A DNA stretch of 64,000 bases from Candidatus Moanabacter tarae (GTDB lineage Bacteria > Verrucomicrobiota > Verrucomicrobiia > Opitutales > UBA2987): the NCBI GenBank assembly GCA_003226295.1, contig CP029803.1:1731477-1795476 (forward strand), in the 5' to 3' direction. Each line of letters starts with the position of its first letter. The stretch's first letter is position 1. The notes beneath the pieces were generated by a model that was not told the DNA's origin, did not search any database, and saw only the letters and a list, made by a program, of their open reading frames with translations. Made by a program: the position numbers and the translations under genes. Below are positions 2,238 to 61,618 of the stretch, piece by piece.

Positions 2238-3242
2238 GTGAATACTTTAAAAACAGCCTGTGTCGCCTGGGACGCTGAAGAAATTCCCGAATGGGTGCCA
2301 CCCCAAATTGAAGCGGCCGGGGTCAAATTCGAAGCTCTACAATGTCAGACTGCTAGTGAGGCTCTGTTGTTCGCACGTAACGCCGATATAATATGGGTTA
2401 TGGGTGGCTCTAACTTGATCACGAGGGAGATTATACCACAACTGGATTCCTGTGGAGCCATAATTCGGAGCGGCAGTGGAACAGACAATATTCCTGTAGA
2501 CCTTGCTACCGAATATGGCATCATCGTTGCAAACACACCAGATGCTACGACTGTCCCTGTAGCTGAACACACCATAGGACTACTCCTTTCGGTAGTGCGA
2601 CGCATCCCCATCCACGATCGTCTTGTACGACAGGGTGAGTGGAATGACTCTAAATCAACACCCCGTTTTTTACTCCAGGGAAGTACAGTTGGATTGATAG
2701 GTTTCGGTAGAATCGCACGCTGTGTTGCGGATCGGCTCGCTCCCTTCGGGGTAAAACTAATTTTAGTCTATGATCCCTTTGTCGATGCTGAGGCGATAGT
2801 AAAAGGCAACGTCAAGAATGTCGATCTCCCGCAACTACTATCTGAATCAGACTTTATCTCCATTCATACTCCACTTCTCGAAGAGACACATCATCTGATC
2901 AGTGAAGTCGAGATTTCCCAAATGAAATCGACTTGTGTGGTTATCAACACCTCCAGAGGATCCGTTGTTGATAACAAAGCGCTCGCCAACGCTTTGAGAG
3001 AGGGAAGAGTTTGGGGTGCAGGCCTTGATGTGTTAGAAAGCGAACCGCCAGATGAAGACGATTTGCTACTGCAATTGGATAATGTCGTCCTGACATCACA
3101 CATCGGCGCGCGGCACGAGGGCCACTTGGACGGATTCTGGCAGCTTTCCGTTGAGACGATCATTGACTTGTCTCGCGGGAAGTGGCCGGTGTCTTACGTG
3201 AATCCAGGAGTAAAACCTCGATGGAAATTAACGGAAAGATAG
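2238..3242 (+). CDS. D-2-hydroxyacid dehydrogenase (NAD-dependent, PGDH/hydroxypyruvate reductase type)
   Basis: A 334-residue member of the D-isomer-specific 2-hydroxyacid dehydrogenase family, which interconverts 2-oxo acids and D-2-hydroxy acids. The nucleotide-binding motif GFGRIA is at 155-160, and Asp179 after the second strand points to NAD. The catalytic triad is complete: Arg240 (NTSRG), Glu269 (LESEPP) and His288 (TSHIG). The GTDNIPVDLA segment (81-90) is the usual substrate-loop region. Translation most likely starts at a GTG, with GAGGG about 11 bases upstream. It reads alone and is convergent with a second, only distantly similar, dehydrogenase of the same family, so the pair is not a recent duplication. 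Confidence 0.9.
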   Translation: MNTLKTACVAWDAEEIPEWVPPQIEAAGVKFEALQCQTASEALLFARNADIIWVMGGSNLITREIIPQLDSCGAIIRSGSGTDNIPVDLATEYGIIVANTPDATTVPVAEHTIGLLLSVVRRIPIHDRLVRQGEWNDSKSTPRFLLQGSTVGLIGFGRIARCVADRLAPFGVKLILVYDPFVDAEAIVKGNVKNVDLPQLLSESDFISIHTPLLEETHHLISEVEISQMKSTCVVINTSRGSVVDNKALANALREGRVWGAGLDVLESEPPDEDDLLLQLDNVVLTSHIGARHEGHLDGFWQLSVETIIDLSRGKWPVSYVNPGVKPRWKLTER

Positions 3243-11495: not shown

Positions 11496-12306
11496 AATTT
11501 TAGAAAACATGACCCCTGACTTATCTTCTTCTTGCCACCTAAATGGCTCAATTGCCGTTGTTACTGGCGCCGCCCAAGGACTAGGACTAGGAATCGTCGA
11601 GAAATTGGCTCGAAGTGGTGCAACCGCGATCATTGCCGATCTGCAGGAGGCAACAGCAAGAGTAGAAGCAGAAAAGTTGCGAACACAGGGTCTTAGCGTG
11701 GACGCAGCCTATCTCGATGTCACGGATAGCACCGCAGTCAGGACTTTCTTCACGGACCTAGTAGCTCAACACGGGCACCTTGACATCCTAGTTAACAATG
11801 CAGGAGTCGGGCAGAAAGTAGATCCCATTGTCGAAACAACTGATCAGGAGTGGGACCGGGTAATCAGCGCCACCCTAACCAGTGCATTCTACTGTAGCCG
11901 TGCTGCAGGCGGGATAATGGAGGACCAGGAATCAGGATGTATCGTCAATATTTCATCCATAAATGGTCAAAATCCAGCAGCTTTGGTTGGAGCCTACAAC
12001 GTAGCCAAAGCCGGGATCATTAGCCTGACTCAAACTCTGGCGATCGAGCTTGCGGCCTACAGTGTTCGGGTCAATGCGATCTGTCCTGGACCCGTTTACA
12101 CAGATTTCAATAAATCGAATATGGCCCAACGATGTCAGACTCTCAATATAACAGAAGAGGAAATGATTGAACGCATCCGAAGCGCCATCCCGCTAGGCCG
12201 CTGGGGAGAACCAATCGATATCGCTCAAGCTGTCGCTTTTCTCTGCAGTGCCGCAGCCTCCTGGATCACCGGCGAAGTTCTCCGAGTAAGCGGCGGTTTG
12301 GCTGGG
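11496..12306. repeat. direct repeat copy 1 (811 bp, identical to copy 2)
   Basis: This stretch, from 13 bases before the first SDR start codon to near its 3' end, is identical base for base to copy 2 by line-by-line comparison. The period is 879 bp. Beyond it the similarity continues for about 70 bases but with around ten substitutions. Confidence 0.97.
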
Positions 12307-12345
12307 GTCTCAGCTACACCGCCTAAGCGGATCAAGACAAGATAA
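11509..12345 (+). CDS. SDR-family NAD(P)-dependent oxidoreductase, copy 1
   Basis: A 278-residue classical short-chain dehydrogenase/reductase. It has the cofactor motif TGAAQGLGLG near residue 20, LVNNAG, the catalytic Ser in NISSINGQ, and YxxxK as YNVAK, all in order. An Asp just after the second strand (IIADLQ) favours NAD over NADP. SDRs of this type oxidise or reduce secondary alcohols, ketones or sugars; the substrate is unknown. The next gene encodes the same protein, differing only in the last residues (LAGVSATPPKR here). It could be cotranscribed with the preceding enolase-superfamily genes, though about 340 bases separate them. Confidence 0.93.
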   Translation: MTPDLSSSCHLNGSIAVVTGAAQGLGLGIVEKLARSGATAIIADLQEATARVEAEKLRTQGLSVDAAYLDVTDSTAVRTFFTDLVAQHGHLDILVNNAGVGQKVDPIVETTDQEWDRVISATLTSAFYCSRAAGGIMEDQESGCIVNISSINGQNPAALVGAYNVAKAGIISLTQTLAIELAAYSVRVNAICPGPVYTDFNKSNMAQRCQTLNITEEEMIERIRSAIPLGRWGEPIDIAQAVAFLCSAAASWITGEVLRVSGGLAGVSATPPKRIKTR

Positions 12346-12374: not shown

Positions 12375-13185
12375 AATTTTAGAAAACATGACCCCTGACT
12401 TATCTTCTTCTTGCCACCTAAATGGCTCAATTGCCGTTGTTACTGGCGCCGCCCAAGGACTAGGACTAGGAATCGTCGAGAAATTGGCTCGAAGTGGTGC
12501 AACCGCGATCATTGCCGATCTGCAGGAGGCAACAGCAAGAGTAGAAGCAGAAAAGTTGCGAACACAGGGTCTTAGCGTGGACGCAGCCTATCTCGATGTC
12601 ACGGATAGCACCGCAGTCAGGACTTTCTTCACGGACCTAGTAGCTCAACACGGGCACCTTGACATCCTAGTTAACAATGCAGGAGTCGGGCAGAAAGTAG
12701 ATCCCATTGTCGAAACAACTGATCAGGAGTGGGACCGGGTAATCAGCGCCACCCTAACCAGTGCATTCTACTGTAGCCGTGCTGCAGGCGGGATAATGGA
12801 GGACCAGGAATCAGGATGTATCGTCAATATTTCATCCATAAATGGTCAAAATCCAGCAGCTTTGGTTGGAGCCTACAACGTAGCCAAAGCCGGGATCATT
12901 AGCCTGACTCAAACTCTGGCGATCGAGCTTGCGGCCTACAGTGTTCGGGTCAATGCGATCTGTCCTGGACCCGTTTACACAGATTTCAATAAATCGAATA
13001 TGGCCCAACGATGTCAGACTCTCAATATAACAGAAGAGGAAATGATTGAACGCATCCGAAGCGCCATCCCGCTAGGCCGCTGGGGAGAACCAATCGATAT
13101 CGCTCAAGCTGTCGCTTTTCTCTGCAGTGCCGCAGCCTCCTGGATCACCGGCGAAGTTCTCCGAGTAAGCGGCGGTTTGGCTGGG
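12375..13185. repeat. direct repeat copy 2 (811 bp, identical to copy 1)
   Basis: Second copy of the tandem unit, offset by 879 bp from the first. Identity begins at the same AATTTTAGAAAACATG block and is unbroken until 13185. The following 3' tail, including the end of the gene and bases after the stop, is homologous to copy 1 but visibly diverged. Confidence 0.97.
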
Positions 13186-13224
13186 TTCCCGGCTACACTG
13201 CCTGAGCAGATCAAGACAAGATAA
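12388..13224 (+). CDS. SDR-family NAD(P)-dependent oxidoreductase, copy 2
   Basis: The same 278-residue short-chain dehydrogenase as the preceding gene, with all catalytic motifs intact (TGxxxGxG, NNAG, Ser, YNVAK). Only the extreme C-terminus differs (LAGFPATLPEQ here). Just 42 bases separate the first stop from this start, so the two are probably one transcript. Both copies look functional. The lack of any synonymous difference over 811 bp means either very recent duplication, recent gene conversion, or an assembly artefact. Confidence 0.93.
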   Translation: MTPDLSSSCHLNGSIAVVTGAAQGLGLGIVEKLARSGATAIIADLQEATARVEAEKLRTQGLSVDAAYLDVTDSTAVRTFFTDLVAQHGHLDILVNNAGVGQKVDPIVETTDQEWDRVISATLTSAFYCSRAAGGIMEDQESGCIVNISSINGQNPAALVGAYNVAKAGIISLTQTLAIELAAYSVRVNAICPGPVYTDFNKSNMAQRCQTLNITEEEMIERIRSAIPLGRWGEPIDIAQAVAFLCSAAASWITGEVLRVSGGLAGFPATLPEQIKTR

Positions 13225-15678: not shown

Positions 15679-16398
15679 ATGTACTACAGCGGAAATTTAA
15701 TCGTCAAAAACAACGAAGGAGTTCGGGAAAACCACAACTGGGGCGTGTTAAATAAGCTCCTGTGTAGGGAAACTACGAAGGACGAAGAATTCACGTTTGG
15801 CGAAATGACTTGCCGACCTGGTGGTGTGCGTGGACCGGCTACAGGGGACGAAGCCTTTCACTGCCTGCGGGGCGAAGGACTTTTCCGCGCTTGGCCGAAA
15901 AATGTTCCAGATAAGGAACCCATTGAAGTTCGTATTCGACCAGGTAGTGAGTACTACGTAAGGCATGATATTCCGAGAACAATTGAGAATACGGGTTCGG
16001 AACCACTTTTTGGAATATTCATGTTCTGTCATGTCGAACGTCCCTGCCATGCCCATCCTTTGTACATAGCTCCAGGAAAAGGGAACGAGATCCACCAACA
16101 TGGTCCTGAAAAATTGCCTGAACTTCTAAAGCAGGACTTCGTAGAAGCGATGTACCTGGTCGACGGTCCGGGATGGGTATCATTAGCGGATCCTAGTAAT
16201 ATGGTCATTACGGATCACGCTATCGAGAGGGGAAGTGCGGTTTACCATCCACTCAACAGCCTTCACCGACAGTTTACCCCTTCTGACTCGAAAGATACTG
16301 TCTTCTGGATACATGCAGGCTACTACCACGGGCGTGGAAGAATATTTGCAGGGGTCTTCGACGATCCAGAATTTACCTTTTGGCATAAAGACCGGTGA
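15679..16398 (+). CDS. cupin-fold protein, probable bicupin
   Basis: A 239-residue protein with double-stranded beta-helix character. The first half has FHCLRGEGLFRAWP (60-73), then RPGSEYYVRHDIPRTIENTGSEPL (87-110), the standard two cupin motifs with a His before the Pro-x-x-x-x-N segment. The second half (about 150-225) repeats the pattern more loosely (DGPGWVSL, then SAVYHPLNSLHRQF). No catalytic assignment is possible; bicupins include isomerases, dioxygenases and sugar-binding proteins. The position after an enolase-superfamily gene on the same strand suggests work on the same compound. The ATG was chosen as the first in frame; no strong ribosome site precedes it. Confidence 0.75.
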   Translation: MYYSGNLIVKNNEGVRENHNWGVLNKLLCRETTKDEEFTFGEMTCRPGGVRGPATGDEAFHCLRGEGLFRAWPKNVPDKEPIEVRIRPGSEYYVRHDIPRTIENTGSEPLFGIFMFCHVERPCHAHPLYIAPGKGNEIHQHGPEKLPELLKQDFVEAMYLVDGPGWVSLADPSNMVITDHAIERGSAVYHPLNSLHRQFTPSDSKDTVFWIHAGYYHGRGRIFAGVFDDPEFTFWHKDR

Positions 16399-17868: not shown

Positions 17869-18708
17869 ATGACATTTAAGAAAACCCCGTCTCCTCCTCT
17901 ACTCCAAGGCTCCCTCGGTCCAGCTACAGTTACTGTTTTGGGAGCGAATGGCCTGCGTTTGACAGGGCTAAAAAGCTTTCACCTCGACGAAGGCCCAGAT
18001 TATGCATGGCTCAATATTTATCGGACTCTAGCCGATAGACAACAACTCGAAATCACCCGGGATCGGGATCCCAGTAATTTTGGTGTATCTGGTAATGCAG
18101 TTGAAGTTCGTTGGGCACCTAATGATAGAATTCGTGGCTCGCTGTGGGCCCGCTACGAGATTGTCGATGAAGAAGATGCTATCGACGTAACTTTCGGTGC
18201 TGATCTTCAGGCAGCTTATGGAGATTTCGAACTTTTTATCGCCAACTATTTTACTCCCTACCATGTACCCCGCTTTGCCATAAGCGACAATCGAACTCAT
18301 CCCGAAGGTAATATTTGGTATGAAAAACAATGGAATGGTGAAGGGGAAAATGAATCCTGGGCGCGAGACGAACAAGCGGAAAAAATTTTTCGGGATGGTC
18401 GCTGGCTGACAGGACACTCTCTCAACTGGCGCCGTGGACCTTTCTATACTCATCCTATCATGATTCAGGAGCACCGCTACGGTGGACACGCCATTGTCCT
18501 AATGGCCCGACGCCAAGACTGCTTCGGGATATCAGGATACAATTCTTATCACAATTCTCAGTACCTCCATCTGTGGGGCCGAGACGTTGCTGCTGGCGAA
18601 CAGGTCTCAGTAACTGTACGGCTTTTACTCATAACTGAGTGGGAGGATCTACAGCGAGAAGCGATGATTCGATATGAGAAATGGCTGGAAAACTTCTGTC
18701 CTGACTAG
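17869..18708 (+). CDS. protein of unknown function, beta-rich
   Basis: A 279-residue protein that I do not recognise. It is probably cytoplasmic, as there is no signal peptide or membrane segment. It is rich in aromatic residues and alternating beta-strand patterns (RYEIVDEEDAIDVTF near 103-117, FELFIANYFTPYHVPRF near 125-142) and ends in a helix (EREAMIRYEKWLENF-like). The strand pattern and clusters of Trp, His and Tyr (HSLNWRRGPFYTHPIM) resemble carbohydrate-active or mutarotase-like beta-sandwich proteins, but that is only an impression. A good ribosome site (AAAGGA, six-base spacing) supports the start. It stands alone between divergent and convergent neighbours. Confidence 0.7.
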   Translation: MTFKKTPSPPLLQGSLGPATVTVLGANGLRLTGLKSFHLDEGPDYAWLNIYRTLADRQQLEITRDRDPSNFGVSGNAVEVRWAPNDRIRGSLWARYEIVDEEDAIDVTFGADLQAAYGDFELFIANYFTPYHVPRFAISDNRTHPEGNIWYEKQWNGEGENESWARDEQAEKIFRDGRWLTGHSLNWRRGPFYTHPIMIQEHRYGGHAIVLMARRQDCFGISGYNSYHNSQYLHLWGRDVAAGEQVSVTVRLLLITEWEDLQREAMIRYEKWLENFCPD

Positions 18709-22780: not shown

Positions 22781-23671
22781 TCATGCTTGCTCAAAGTACC
22801 CTGTGTTTTCCAAATTTTTACGCAGCTGGATCTTCTCGTCATCTTCCAGCTCACGAAGAGGTGTCCTCGGCACTCCGCATTCAAGCCCTATCCAAGCCAT
22901 CATCTGCTTTGCAGCGGCTATCAGGTTAAAATTCAATAATATGGAGATGCACTTATTGATCTTCTTCTGCAACTCAGCGGCCTCAGCCATATTTCCACCC
23001 TGAACAGCATCCCAAAGTTGAACAAACCAACGAGGCATCAGATTATAGGTCAACCCAATCCCTCCACAAGCTCCCGCAATCAGTCCCCCTAATAATACGG
23101 TATCCTCGCCATTAAAAAGGGTGGCCTCAGGTCGCTGAGCAATGAACTTTCCGATTGCAAATAGATCTCCGGTAGAATCCTTCATTCCGATTATTTCGTC
23201 GATATTGAGTAGGTCTTCATAAAGTTTCGTGGTCATCGTCACCCCAGTGCGGGCAGGAATATTGTAGATTAACAGTGGAAGAGCCGCTGCTTCCGCTAGT
23301 TTTCTGTAGTAATGTACAATCTCCTTTTCATCGGGTGTGTAAAAATAAGCTGGCGGTAATGCCGAAATAGCGTCCACTCCAGCATTCCGCGCATCTTCTG
23401 CTCGGCCCAGAGCACCATCCGTTTGGAATGCACCAACATGACTAATTACCGGAACCTTGCCCCCTACTTCGTCAATCACAGTCTCAACGACTGCTCTATG
23501 TTCCTCCCGCTTCAGGAGCAGTCCCTCTCCCGTTCCACCGCAAAGATAAAATCCATGCACACCCGCTCTCAACTGGTAGCCGATAACCTTACGCATTGCC
23601 ACCGGATCGAAGGTGCCGCTCTTGCCATAGGGTGTTACAGTAGCTGGGAATATACCACGAAGATTACTCAT
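22781..23671 (-). CDS. dihydrodipicolinate synthase / N-acetylneuraminate lyase family protein
   Basis: A 296-residue class I aldolase of the DapA/NanA family. The carboxylate-binding loop GGTGEG is at 45-50, Tyr136 (IYNIPARTG) is the proton relay, and Lys164 (IGMKDSTGD) is the Schiff-base lysine. Arg141 after the Tyr motif is typical of DapA-like members. Biosynthetic DapA is possible, but the surroundings and sequence style suggest a catabolic lyase acting on a 2-keto-3-deoxy acid or sialic-acid-like substrate releasing pyruvate. It lies between the M24 gene and the interrupted PhyH gene, same strand, gaps of about 170-220 bases. Confidence 0.9.
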   Translation of the reverse strand: MSNLRGIFPATVTPYGKSGTFDPVAMRKVIGYQLRAGVHGFYLCGGTGEGLLLKREEHRAVVETVIDEVGGKVPVISHVGAFQTDGALGRAEDARNAGVDAISALPPAYFYTPDEKEIVHYYRKLAEAAALPLLIYNIPARTGVTMTTKLYEDLLNIDEIIGMKDSTGDLFAIGKFIAQRPEATLFNGEDTVLLGGLIAGACGGIGLTYNLMPRWFVQLWDAVQGGNMAEAAELQKKINKCISILLNFNLIAAAKQMMAWIGLECGVPRTPLRELEDDEKIQLRKNLENTGYFEQA

Positions 23672-23844: not shown

Positions 23845-24762
23845 TTACTGAATTTGTTTGTCTGGATCGACTTCAAAAAAAGGGTTTGCTGCACCTTTCT
23901 GGGCCTCGTATATTCCTGTAGAACCGGCCGGGGGTGGCAGCGGAATGCGAACCGGAACTTTTTCAAGACGTGGTTCAACCGTTGGATTTCCGGCTATCAT
24001 CCGAGCATTGTAGGTTTCCAAATTAGGGATGAGTGGTTTAGTATAAGTACCACAAAGTGGCCAGGCGTCGGCGGCAGTGAGTTCATAGTAAAGCACTCGT
24101 CGGGAACGCTGTGAGCGATTGATGTCTGATCCGTGCACGATACGAGCGGGAAAGAGAACGAGAGACCCACTAGGAGCAGTCAGTTGTACCGCATTGGTGA
24201 AGTTCAAACCACTTGTCTCAAGGTTGATAGCACCAGAGAATCGACCAGCATTGTGATGGTCAAAAACAGGACCTTTATGCGAGCCAGGGAATACCATCAG
24301 CGCTCCGTTGTCTTTGACGATATCGTCGATCAATACTCCACTGACCAAGACATCATCATTACTGTGCGGATAGAAAGCCCAATCCTAGTGCCACTGGACT
24401 GGGGCACCAAACCCAGCCATTTTAAAATTGATCTTGGCGAAGTGCAACCGGATGTTCGGTCCGATCAGATGACTCACGACTTTGACGTATTTCGGTTTCC
24501 TTACAAAATCTCGAAAGATAGGGTGTTGATCATCCGGCCGAATGATTCGCCGAATGCGAGGCTGTTCCGGTGTGTGGGTATCCTTATCCTCTAGTTCTAT
24601 TACTCCGTCGCTTTCTGTCATCATCTTGCCACGCTCGAGAAACTCATTCAGCACTTCCTTTAGTTCCCCAATCTCGGTCTCTGAGAAAAGCCTCTCAACA
24701 ATGAGATATCCTTCAGATTTATAAAACTCCACTTGCTCTTCACTTATCACTGTTCGCGGCAT
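23845..24762 (-). pseudogene. phytanoyl-CoA dioxygenase (PhyH) gene interrupted by an in-frame TAG in the HxD motif
   Basis: Read straight through, this is a normal 305-codon PhyH gene in one frame. The only fault is a TAG at 24385-24387, which falls between His125 (PVQWH) and Asp127 (DWAFYPH), the residue X of the iron-binding HxD motif. Downstream features are intact: NGALMVFPGSH, then the distal His in RIVHGSDINRSQRSRR. Relatives commonly have Gln (CAG) at X, one base from TAG. An AAAGGA five bases upstream of the ATG is preserved and the start is 10 bases after the previous gene. It is a recent nonsense pseudogene, a strain polymorphism or sequencing error, or less likely a readthrough codon. 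Confidence 0.85.
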
Positions 24763-24772
24763 TAGTTCCTTT

Positions 24773-25606
24773 CTAAAGACTTAGAAGATAGTCGCGAAAG
24801 AGGACCGTTTCACTGAGATTATCCACCATGTTACACCTGGCCCAGGCTGTCCAGACATACTCCAAACCAAGATACCCGCGATAACCAGTCTTTTTCATCA
24901 CTGCCACAATTCGCGCAAAATCGACTGTGTTATTCTCGAATGAAGCCTGAAGCCAACCTCTACAAGCACCGCGCACATGGAAATGGCTGGCGAAAGCAAT
25001 CAACGGCTCAACCTCCGAATCGGGTATACCCTGGCATGCAAAGTGACCGTAGTCGAGCGTATAGGTCAGACCCGGGACAGTTTGGATAAACCGTAAGGCT
25101 GATTTAGGTCGCGAGACAAACGACCCGAGATGTGGTTCTACTCCCAGAACAATCTTGTAAGATTTGGCGCGCTCAACCCGCCAGGCCAACTCTTCTCGGG
25201 CGAGGGATAAGGATCCAGCTTTAGAATGTTTATCAAAAAAAACACCAGGCGTCGTCGTGACGTGTTTAGATTCGCAGATGGAAGCATATTCAAGCGTCCG
25301 TTCGAACCAATCTCTTGCCTTACGTCGGCGTGAAGGTTGCGGATGATTGACGGCGAAGGAGGCTAAATCTTCGTCTGCAATCAGAAAAATATCTGCCGCT
25401 TTTAGACCACGGCTATCAAGCTTTTTCTTCAGTTTACGACCCGACCGACCAACATTTTTGAATTGGTCCGAGGGTTGTAAATGTGATCGATTTTCGAATA
25501 ATCCAATGTCGACACTTCCCAATCCAAGAGTCGAAATCAGGCTTAAAGCATCGTCATGTTGAAGTAAGGGGAAAGTGAAATCAGCACAGGCAATTTTGCG
25601 TTTCAT
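24773..25606 (-). CDS. sugar phosphate isomerase/epimerase family TIM barrel
   Basis: A 277-residue xylose-isomerase-like barrel protein with a full metal set: Glu157 (GVEPHLG), Asp185 (TLDYGHF), His210 (HFHVRG) and Glu249 (GLEYVW). The family includes ketose epimerases, hydroxypyruvate isomerase, myo-inosose dehydratase and endonuclease IV. I prefer the ATG giving MKRKIACADF because TIM-barrel homologues begin with the first strand at this point; a frame extension of 16 codons upstream is unlikely. It is the first gene of the minus-strand set that continues with the interrupted PhyH gene only 10 bases away, so cotranscription is likely. Confidence 0.85.
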   Translation of the reverse strand: MKRKIACADFTFPLLQHDDALSLISTLGLGSVDIGLFENRSHLQPSDQFKNVGRSGRKLKKKLDSRGLKAADIFLIADEDLASFAVNHPQPSRRRKARDWFERTLEYASICESKHVTTTPGVFFDKHSKAGSLSLAREELAWRVERAKSYKIVLGVEPHLGSFVSRPKSALRFIQTVPGLTYTLDYGHFACQGIPDSEVEPLIAFASHFHVRGACRGWLQASFENNTVDFARIVAVMKKTGYRGYLGLEYVWTAWARCNMVDNLSETVLFRDYLLSL

Positions 25607-25769
25607 AGAGTTCTTTTTACTTAAAGCCAAACCGCTATGGAGCGATTTTCTCACCCTACCTTCCAGTTCTTGTTTTTGACCAGTAAAAAAATTCGAGGCC
25701 TTGCAAAACCGTACTGGAAATGTAGATTAATTACACTGTAGGAACGATCGTTTATTAGAAATACATATT

Positions 25770-50158: not shown

Positions 50159-51085
50159 ATGAACTACACACGTTTTGGAAACACCGGTCTTACAGTCTCT
50201 CGTTTATGCCTGGGAACCGCATTTCGGGAAACCCGAGATGAAGCTGTCGCAACTAACACAATCGAGTATGCCATCGATCAAGGCATCAACTTCATAGACT
50301 GCGCCAATGTCTACGGCCAAGGCTGGTCTGAGACCGTTTTGGGAAAAGCAATTAAGGGACATCGAGACGATCTTGTACTTACGACCAAGGTGCGTAGCCC
50401 AATGGGAGAATTACCTAACGACCAGGGGTCCTCTGCATATAATATAATGAGGGAAATCGAGCGAAGCCTGAAGCGTCTCCAAACCGATCACATCGATCTT
50501 TACCTCCTTCATAGCTGGGATCAAGAAACCCCACTTGATGAAACCCTAAGAGCACTTGATAGTCTTGTAAATCAGGGCAAGGTGCGCTACATTGGTTGCT
50601 GTAATTTTGCTGCCTGGCAAATCTGTAAGGGTCTTTGGACCAGCGATCGGGCCAATCTTACACCTTTCCTTGGAATTCAGCATTACTACAATCTTCTCCA
50701 TCGGTCCCTGGAGTATGAGCATTTTGCTCTGGCAGAGGAAGAGGGCCTTGGCCTTATGACCTATAGTCCCATTGCCGTCGGCCTCCTCCTTGGTCGTCAA
50801 CCGAAAGAAAAGCCTGTACAAAAGGAGATATTTGGAGGACCAAATGTCACTAATGTACTAGCAACCGTGAATGAAATTGGCAAAGAAACCGGAAAGACTG
50901 CAGCTCAAGTATCAATCGCATGGGTTCTGTCTCATCCTCAGATTTCTTCGGCTATGACAGGCCCCGATTCTCCTGAGCAGCTTGAAGAAAATCTGGGTGG
51001 CGTTCAGTGGGAATTAGGGGATGAAGAATGTCAGCGTCTCAATGACGTATCTGCTTGGGCGATAGGGAATGGAGTTTTTAGGTGA
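50159..51085 (+). CDS. aldo/keto reductase
   Basis: A 308-residue NAD(P)H-dependent aldo/keto reductase. The tetrad is intact: Asp47 (FIDCAN), Tyr52 (VYGQGWSE), Lys77 (TTKVRS) and His118 (LLHSWD). MNYTRFGNTGLTVSRLCLGT is the standard opening, so I start at that ATG rather than at an upstream in-frame codon. The C-terminus contains the STAMTGPDSPEQLEENL-like cofactor motif (SSAMTGPDSPEQLEEN). Family members reduce sugar or steroid carbonyls, including inosose and fucose-type dehydrogenases. Its TGA overlaps the start of the next gene, so translation is coupled to the beta-propeller protein. Confidence 0.93.
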   Translation: MNYTRFGNTGLTVSRLCLGTAFRETRDEAVATNTIEYAIDQGINFIDCANVYGQGWSETVLGKAIKGHRDDLVLTTKVRSPMGELPNDQGSSAYNIMREIERSLKRLQTDHIDLYLLHSWDQETPLDETLRALDSLVNQGKVRYIGCCNFAAWQICKGLWTSDRANLTPFLGIQHYYNLLHRSLEYEHFALAEEEGLGLMTYSPIAVGLLLGRQPKEKPVQKEIFGGPNVTNVLATVNEIGKETGKTAAQVSIAWVLSHPQISSAMTGPDSPEQLEENLGGVQWELGDEECQRLNDVSAWAIGNGVFR

Positions 51086-52668
51086 TGACCATGAAACAAA
51101 AAAGCGTTAAATCAAAAAAAATTGCTACCCCTCGTATTCCCAGAATTCGTCTCAATTCCGGCGCCTGGAGTCCCCTGGTTGATATGATCGATGTCTTTCC
51201 TGGACACCGCGGATCCAGTCGAGAAGGTGAGCTTGAACTCTACGACGCACCTATTGGAATCCGTTTCGAGATCGAAGTGGCAAAGAAATCCGAGCCACTG
51301 TTGGAGGCAGAGTGTGTTTGGGAGAAGAGCATAGCTCCTCTTTGCATATGGCAGGAAGCAGGGCGATATCATATGATATACACCGCTTCTGGAGGACACT
51401 GTTATGCTATTAGCGATGACGCCTACAATTGGAATCGACCTGAACTCAGTGAGGTTGAATACAACGGTTTGAAGAAAAATAATTTGATCTCTAGTCCAGC
51501 TGAAGGAGCCACCGGCACTTTTGAAGATCTTAGCGCTCCGCCTGAGGAACGCTTTAAGGCTATAGGGGGGCGGATGTACTGGAGTGATCCTGAGACGGGT
51601 GAAGAATTGAACGGAGAAGAGGCGAATTTACGAATGGAAGCCGAGCAGCAGACGGAATGCTACACGGGACCAAAGGCCGAGATAAGAGGTCACACGCTTG
51701 CGTGGACCTCACCCGACCGCATCCATTGGAATCCGGTCGAAAACCCATTGGCTTACCGGCCGGTTAACGGTGGTATTTCAGCCCGTTACGACCCTCATCG
51801 GGGAGATTACTTCTGTTATATTCAGCTTATGGGCTACCCGGCTGAGGTTCTAGATGGAATCGGCGTCAGTCGACTGGAACAAGGAATGCAGATTCGGACC
51901 ATCGGGTTTTCGCGCACCAAAAATTTCTTCGAATGGCCGGCTCCTAAGTTGATTCACCATCCTGACACAGAGGACGATCCGGATATTTCTTTCTACGGCG
52001 CCAATTATTTTGCTTACCCGGGACGCGATGATCTTCACGGGATGTTTATCCCCATCTACCACCAAATTGCCAGTACTATCGACGGTCAGATTGCATTCAG
52101 CCGTGATGGGCTCTACTGGTCACGCCCTGAACGCAGAGCCATACTCCCCTTGGGAAAAGAAGGAGATGGAGATGAGTGTATAGCGCACTTCTGGCGCAGT
52201 GGAATCGTTGAGCTCCCCGACGGCAACTGGGCCTGTCCTTACACAGGAAACTCTGTTATTCACGACCTTCCCGACAGCAAGATCCCGGTTTTATTTCCAC
52301 AACGAAGGCCGAATCAAATTCGATGGGCCCTTTGGCGACCGCATCGCTTTTGTGGCATTCGGGCCGACTCGAAAGGTGAATTTACTCTACCTTCCCTATA
52401 CAGAGCTCACAATGAATTACATCTCAACTACCGCTGCGAACCAGGTGGATGGATACAAGTCGAGCTGCTGGAGAAAATCCCGTCATTGGTATTTCCGGAT
52501 ACTGACCCAGTACCTGGATTCAGCTTTGAAGATTGTGACCGCCTAACCGGCGACGCTGAAGATCGAGTGGTAACCTGGAGAGGAAACAACGATATTTCCG
52601 TAGTTGGAGAAGCAGTTGGAATCCGTGTTCGGATGTTCGGAGCCAAACTATTTGCCTATCGCGTGTAA
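51082..52668 (+). CDS. five-bladed beta-propeller glycosidase-like protein
   Basis: A 528-residue protein with repeated patterns typical of GH32/GH43/GH130-like five-bladed propellers: RYHMIYTASGGHCYAISDDAYNWNRPE near 98-124, HTLAWTSPDRIHWNPVENP, and QIAFSRDGLYWSRPERRAILP. A C-terminal beta-sandwich follows (about 415-528). It has no signal peptide, so it is likely cytoplasmic. Assignment to one GH family is not possible by eye, and the catalytic acids are not certain. Several starts are possible: the GTG at 51082 overlaps the TGA of the aldo/keto reductase, and ATGs occur one and three codons later. Coupling implies the two proteins act on the same sugar compound. Confidence 0.75.
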   Translation: MMTMKQKSVKSKKIATPRIPRIRLNSGAWSPLVDMIDVFPGHRGSSREGELELYDAPIGIRFEIEVAKKSEPLLEAECVWEKSIAPLCIWQEAGRYHMIYTASGGHCYAISDDAYNWNRPELSEVEYNGLKKNNLISSPAEGATGTFEDLSAPPEERFKAIGGRMYWSDPETGEELNGEEANLRMEAEQQTECYTGPKAEIRGHTLAWTSPDRIHWNPVENPLAYRPVNGGISARYDPHRGDYFCYIQLMGYPAEVLDGIGVSRLEQGMQIRTIGFSRTKNFFEWPAPKLIHHPDTEDDPDISFYGANYFAYPGRDDLHGMFIPIYHQIASTIDGQIAFSRDGLYWSRPERRAILPLGKEGDGDECIAHFWRSGIVELPDGNWACPYTGNSVIHDLPDSKIPVLFPQRRPNQIRWALWRPHRFCGIRADSKGEFTLPSLYRAHNELHLNYRCEPGGWIQVELLEKIPSLVFPDTDPVPGFSFEDCDRLTGDAEDRVVTWRGNNDISVVGEAVGIRVRMFGAKLFAYRV

Positions 52669-60454: not shown

Positions 60455-61618
60455 CTACGGTTGATTATCCAACCGTGGATTTAAGTCCAAAGCGAGTTCT
60501 CTGAAGTTTCGAACCTGGTGAAGCGTAATCAGATTGGTATCGTGTTGGTTCCTGCCTCCCTGTGAAGTACGCGCCAGAATAAGCAAATCGTCGCCAAATA
60601 TAAGTTGCGATGCATAACTGAATGAATTGCAGGGATGCCCATCAATCGCAACACACCCCGCCTGGAGCCAATTTAGTGCGTCCTTGCTGTACATAAGCAT
60701 TAGAATTCGTCTCTCGTTGCCAGGTGGACCTTGAAAGCCAATCTCTCGTAAAGGCTCCCGATCTTGCCAAGTATCGGTTGGAATCGTCACCGTGGTCCAA
60801 AAAAGTCCCACAATAGGATCCTGCACAATGTGGAATTTACACTGAGCTCCAGGCATCGGGTAGAACTGTAGAAAACAATATTTTAATTCGAACCCATCAT
60901 CCTTAAGTCTACAAACGGCAGCCAACCCAGCCGTCGAGTGCCCATCAATAATGGTCCTCAATACAACCCGAAATTCACCATTTACCTCGATGACATTTCC
61001 CTCCAACCAGCTATCATGGGGGATCTTGTCTTCATTACTTGCCTGGTATTTACCCTGAGTCAAAACGGCAGGCACTTTAGGGAACCCTAGCTTATTCGAC
61101 ATCCTCCATGAAGAAGTGGCTAGCAGGTCTCCGGAAAGATCTCCCGCCACCACCAACGATTTCCATTCAGATCGCACACCCATGCATGTTTCGAAGGCAC
61201 GGTAGACAATCCCAGAACGGAGCAACACATGAGTCGGAGCACCATGAAAGCGTCCTTGAAACAGGGTAACTATATCAGTCCAGCTTTCACCCCCATCCGA
61301 GGATCTCGCAATACAAATGTCACGGCTTTTCCGTCGGTTTCCGATAATGTAAAGGACATCACCGACAATAAATAAGGATGCCCATATGAAATCCACAGCC
61401 GCGACCTTTCGCCAAGTCGTAGCCCCGTCATCACTGACGAGAATCTCTGTCTGATTCAAAATTTCCTCCTTGAGAGGTTTGGGCCGAAACCACTCGTAAC
61501 TAGCCACTAAACGTCCATTAGGCAAATTGGCCAAAGAGGGCGAACCCGTATACAAATTCTCAGGATCGGATGACCTTGCAAGTATACTATAGTTTTCGGA
61601 CAAAATCATACACACCAT
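60455..61618 (-). CDS. sialidase / BNR-repeat family protein
   Basis: A 387-residue protein with sialidase-type Asp boxes: VSDDGATTW (about 61-69) and RSSDGGESW (about 104-112), each fitting S/TxDxGxxW. The repeated strand pattern (LVASYEWFRP, IVYRAFETCMG, NEFRVVLRT-like) supports a six-bladed propeller. No signal peptide or anchor is visible, so extracellular action on glycans is unlikely unless exported otherwise. Arg residues that would form the sialic-acid triad are not certain. It may be an exo-sialidase or another glycosidase-like propeller. An ATG three codons in is an alternative start. Confidence 0.8.
   Translation of the reverse strand: MVCMILSENYSILARSSDPENLYTGSPSLANLPNGRLVASYEWFRPKPLKEEILNQTEILVSDDGATTWRKVAAVDFIWASLFIVGDVLYIIGNRRKSRDICIARSSDGGESWTDIVTLFQGRFHGAPTHVLLRSGIVYRAFETCMGVRSEWKSLVVAGDLSGDLLATSSWRMSNKLGFPKVPAVLTQGKYQASNEDKIPHDSWLEGNVIEVNGEFRVVLRTIIDGHSTAGLAAVCRLKDDGFELKYCFLQFYPMPGAQCKFHIVQDPIVGLFWTTVTIPTDTWQDREPLREIGFQGPPGNERRILMLMYSKDALNWLQAGCVAIDGHPCNSFSYASQLIFGDDLLILARTSQGGRNQHDTNLITLHQVRNFRELALDLNPRLDNQP

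Follow-up and report, generated by a model that had tools for sequence, protein, structure and literature searches.

An isolated in-frame TAG in the HxD iron motif of a PhyH-family dioxygenase gene of Candidatus Moanabacter tarae

Introduction

Does a TAG codon placed exactly where a metal-binding motif expects one residue mark a broken gene, or a gene that is read in an unusual way? This question is raised by a PhyH-family dioxygenase gene in the window, the whole stretch of 64,000 nucleotides of Candidatus Moanabacter tarae DNA that was analysed here. According to the account by Belinky et al. (2021), in-frame stops are widespread in bacterial genes, many of them under purifying selection, and tend to be short-lived, on the scale of population polymorphism (PMC7918605). 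For the PhyH gene described below, which is otherwise intact, we conclude that the stop is very probably an isolated and recent nonsense codon, real or apparent (a mutation, the allele of one strain or an error in the consensus).

Results

A single TAG interrupts an open PhyH frame

From ATG 24762 to the stop codon ending at 23845, the PhyH frame contains no stop other than the TAG at codon 126 (24387..24385), with GAPVQWH encoded before it and DWAFYPH after it, so the frame is indeed open on both sides of a single TAG lying exactly between the His and Asp of the iron motif, as the first-pass annotation had described. With X put at the stop, Pfam returns a PF05721 match of 109.7 bits (cut-off 22) over residues 14-223. 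Residues H125, D127 and H210, which we take to be the iron ligands by homology and from what is familiar of the PhyH family, are thus encoded in a single frame in which the TAG stands for the x of HxD, and a frame for the whole enzyme is interrupted at this one codon. The coordinates are collected in Table 1.

Table 1. Features of the interrupted PhyH gene and its surroundings
Feature	Position	Strand	Remarks
Interrupted PhyH-family (PF05721) dioxygenase gene	23845..24762	minus	305 codons and a terminal stop, interrupted by one TAG
In-frame TAG, codon 126	24385..24387	minus	flanked by His125 and Asp127, the H and D of the iron motif
His125 codon, first HxD residue	24388..24390	minus	alignment with solved PhyH enzymes
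Asp127 codon of HxD, directly 3' of the TAG	24382..24384	minus	alignment with solved PhyH enzymes
His210 codon, distal His of VHGS	24133..24135	minus	invariant in 23/23 aligned sequences (window gene and 22 relatives); H209 when the first Met is left out of the numbering
Part translated if the TAG terminates	24385..24762	minus	125 aa, last residue is the first of HxD
Conserved part downstream of the TAG	23845..24384	minus	179 codons plus terminal stop
Ribosome-binding-site-like AAAGGA upstream of ATG 24762	24767..24772	minus	found by eye
Upstream neighbour, xylose-isomerase-like TIM barrel (PF01261)	24773..25654	minus	ends 10 bases before the PhyH start; own stop is TAG
Downstream neighbour, dihydrodipicolinate-synthase family (PF00701)	22781..23671	minus	Pfam

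The gene shares PF05721, across the stop, with Fe(II)/2-oxoglutarate dioxygenases of known structure (human PHYH, the ectoine hydroxylase EctD, proline hydroxylase H11 and GriE), and sequence matches to these chains were obtained; in the phmmer alignment, human phytanoyl-CoA dioxygenase (2a1x) has H-Q-D opposite the H-x-D of the window gene. The structure predicted for the read-through protein from 23 aligned sequences (mean pLDDT 77.5, pTM 0.81) shares the fold of proline hydroxylase H11, GriE, human PHYH and EctD (Foldseek E-values from 2.5e-17 to 2.3e-16, TMq near 0.6). The HxD motif and the distal His are encoded here as in the known enzymes, but the window gene has a TAG between the H and the D, and its identity to the aligned relatives does not exceed 49%.

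Relatives carry glutamine at the interrupted position

Across 50 homologues, seven of them paralogues from the same genome, the column of the TAG holds Gln in 49 (45 CAG, 4 CAA) and Ala in the remaining one, a distant paralogue, so that all 50 have a sense codon and none a stop, which bears out the expectation that relatives usually carry Gln (CAG) at this site. Three further loci beyond this alignment also read HQD. One locus (L102) had been considered as a second relative with an internal TAG and was rejected, since on translation the TAG proves to be the codon that terminates this gene, which has HQD as its motif; in another (L014), a stop lies close to the end of the fetched match, 292 codons in.

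In a scan of genome contigs seeded by short exact peptide patterns, 34 loci came up, at most 48% identical, of which 27 bear names of Alphaproteobacteria, a class that we presume for loci labelled with a genus alone. Whole-genome searches with the PhyH protein covered genome sets that overlap, with the own genome counted each time. At E 1e-40, 5 of 87 relatives had a match; at 1e-60, matches were present in 6 of 384 genomes at the level of the class and in 13 of 372 at that of the order. The three genomes from the same family gave none at E 1e-40. All 11 plasmid records with relatives of the gene are below 60% identity, and no viral relative was confirmed in one scan.

The genome itself (2.63 Mb) holds large expansions of paralogues, with 66 matches to MR_MLE_C, 51 to adh_short and 33 to the window PhyH protein; the enolase expansion resembles one described for SAR202 groups I and II (PMC6946804). 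Two short-chain dehydrogenase genes of the window, 11509-12345 and 12388-13224, lie in tandem and are near-identical (6 mismatches between 837-base ORFs). Three more such pairs occur elsewhere in the genome, one of PhyH genes (L104) and two of the enolase superfamily (L105 and L106), whose members differ by 10-12 mismatches in about 870-1200 bases. These pairs would be either recent tandem duplications or assembly duplicates. Four ORFs of the window have no Pfam match at E 1e-5: 15679-16398 (239 aa), 17869-18708 (279 aa), 51082-52668 (528 aa) and 60455-61618 (387 aa).

The gene shows one lesion and no strong decay

Beyond the TAG, neither a stop nor a frameshift was detected in the PhyH gene, so that it bears little resemblance to a gene long in decay. 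From this absence, neutral divergence since the TAG arose has a 95% upper bound of about 0.03-0.10 substitutions per site, a value that varies with the assumed indel rate. The codon usage score of the downstream half (-1.148) is close to the mean of the window genes (-1.120, sd 0.035), and the other two frames of this half contain 6 and 13 stops. Along with the Pfam match, these values mark the frame as genuinely coding. Third-position GC is 0.512 before and 0.425 after the TAG, with a range of 0.400-0.550 for 50 window genes.

Against 43 relatives, the window gene departs at 2 of 16 columns before and 6 of 46 after the TAG when columns at least 95% conserved are considered, at 4 of 21 and 6 of 57 when the threshold is 90%, and at 0 of 12 and 3 of 26 fully invariant columns. 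Its total at the 95% threshold is the highest of the 44 sequences (8/62; next 7/70), close to the most divergent relatives, the three foremost of which (L041, L044 and L045) depart at 1 of 17 columns before and 6 of 53 after the site. The mean identity of the window gene to its relatives (0.367 before the TAG, 0.492 after it) is slightly lower in both halves than that of eight other members (0.383-0.452 and 0.498-0.568). In tip branch length the window gene ranks second in the trees (0.74 before, 0.54 after), and its root-to-tip distance lies outside the 12 highest. The adjacent family residues His 204-205 are replaced by Phe-Pro; His 205 is invariant among relatives with a letter there and His 204 is at least 95% conserved, with Phe at 204 also in L037.

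On these alignments, the part downstream of the TAG is conserved to much the same degree as in divergent intact relatives, and PGSH and H210 are present in it, so the conserved downstream reading noted earlier (DWAFYPH, PGSH, distal His) stands at that level. Because the gene has the most departures, lower identity, a long tip branch and Phe-Pro at 204-205, its constraint may be slightly relaxed or its function changed.

A consensus error is a possible source of the TAG

Part of our preferred explanation is that the TAG may be only apparent, that is, a sequencing or assembly consensus error, or the base of a minority strain, while the gene of the living population is intact. We consider this sub-case, whose probability is contained in that of the isolated nonsense codon as a whole, possible but unlikely; it is somewhat more likely that the TAG is real, as a recent mutation or a polymorphism. 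The error would agree with a PhyH gene that has neither a second lesion nor strong decay. It would also agree with the lack of stops in the other matches that three families have in the genome: stops within matches of the own genome number 1 of 33 for PhyH (the window gene), 0 of 51 for adh_short and 0 of 66 for MR_MLE_C, 1 of 150 in total, counted over matched stretches alone, with frameshifts left out and some genes contributing two matches. However, an error-rich assembly should show more stops, and these same stretches, again with frameshifts uncounted, have none in the 149 other matches. Cytosine methylation can be a source of mutation or of base-calling error. A methylation-linked artefact was rejected as unsupported because no PF00145 cytosine methyltransferase was found in the genome, with a model that gives a match in 10 of 14 control genomes.

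Low-level misreading by tRNA-Gln is improbable as a function

If the TAG is real, a near-cognate tRNA-Gln could at times read it, restore the residue of the family and make a little active enzyme, the allele being kept as a form of low expression. The two tRNA-Gln genes of the genome (CUG and UUG) would provide the means, insertion of Gln at misread UAG is described for E. coli (PMC9481147, PMC8954436), and the purifying selection argued by Belinky et al. for many bacterial in-frame stops (PMC7918605) would provide a precedent. The rates given in one of these sources are low, however: in two Pseudomonas species, UAG is read through at 0.01% or less (0.01% in one and 1 in 20,000 in the other), and E. 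coli has a UAG readthrough about 500x below the 12% of UGA (PMC9481147), so basal misreading would yield only traces of enzyme. Moreover, no homologue examined shares the TAG, and there is thus no sign of long-term maintenance. We therefore regard functional readthrough as improbable. Slightly less probable still is the more specific idea of the TAG as a low-expression switch, in which misreading by tRNA-Gln restores the residue between the iron ligands, traces of product are active and the allele flips back easily. If readthrough were shown, the gene would be a clean case of basal misreading restoring the family residue at an active site.

Dedicated recoding and a split enzyme are very improbable

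The TAG takes the place of a single expected residue, and the frame goes on behind it, as it would if pyrrolysine or a suppressor tRNA inserted an amino acid there. Against such recoding, TAG is in regular use as a stop: the 50 Pfam-supported genes of the window end in TAG (15), TGA (20) or TAA (15), and the two genes that the first-pass annotation had cited as examples of ordinary TAG stops, 876-1907 and 2238-3242, do end in this codon. RF1 is present at 458.7 bits (cut-off 423.25); its best matches are the 4v4r chains (348 bits), slightly above 5j30 and 2b3t (336 bits), chains which we take to be from Thermus and E. coli. With RF1 retained and TAG not avoided as a stop, reassignment of the code is as unlikely as had been proposed.

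The search for pyrrolysine or suppressor tRNA genes that had been suggested gave a negative answer in its first part, since the best of four matches to the PylS model reaches 25.3 bits (cut-off 178.15), none attains the cut-off, and 13 of 14 control genomes likewise give PylS matches solely below it. In its second part, the search found the CUA anticodon in 0 of 43 detected tRNAs (genes by Rfam model, one anticodon for each by ARAGORN), a list that is incomplete because tRNA-Ile(GAU) and tRNA-Ala(UGC) are absent from it; a pattern search of the genome for tRNA-Ile(GAU) found nothing. A search of the own genome (one contig, 98% complete) for 16S rRNA also found nothing, with a method that detected the gene in just 9 of 14 controls; the rRNA operon may have been withheld, missed or be missing. 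Together with the stop-free state of the other family matches, the PylS scores and the anticodons of this incomplete tRNA list speak against the suppression that had been held possible, and we consider dedicated recoding very improbable.

Weakest of all, and hardly credible, is that the two halves are made separately and assemble into a split enzyme: a same-frame ORF of 167 aa does begin at TTG 24348, but this start lies after Asp127, which would be missing, and by eye it has no ribosome-binding-site-like sequence before it, in contrast to the AAAGGA before ATG 24762.

Discussion

The preferred explanation, an isolated nonsense codon of recent origin, has the marks of a young pseudogene: a single disabling lesion, the rest of the sequence intact, and sense codons at the site in relatives. 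In this explanation, RF1 would terminate at codon 126 and release a 125-residue fragment with one of the three putative iron ligands. Because this product would end after His125, no iron site would be formed, and in this assembly the gene would be inactive save for traces of chance readthrough. Most likely, the TAG involves no novel mode of decoding.

The case fits the known kind of bacterial in-frame stop described by Belinky et al., with a single TAG where relatives have CAG and a frame that is otherwise conserved, like their TAG/CAG example from Paenibacillus (PMC7918605). It differs in that the stop of the window gene occurs in one genome only and is common to no relative examined. Its importance lies mainly in annotation, where 1 of 33 PhyH-matching places in this genome would be called a pseudogene or be split in two.
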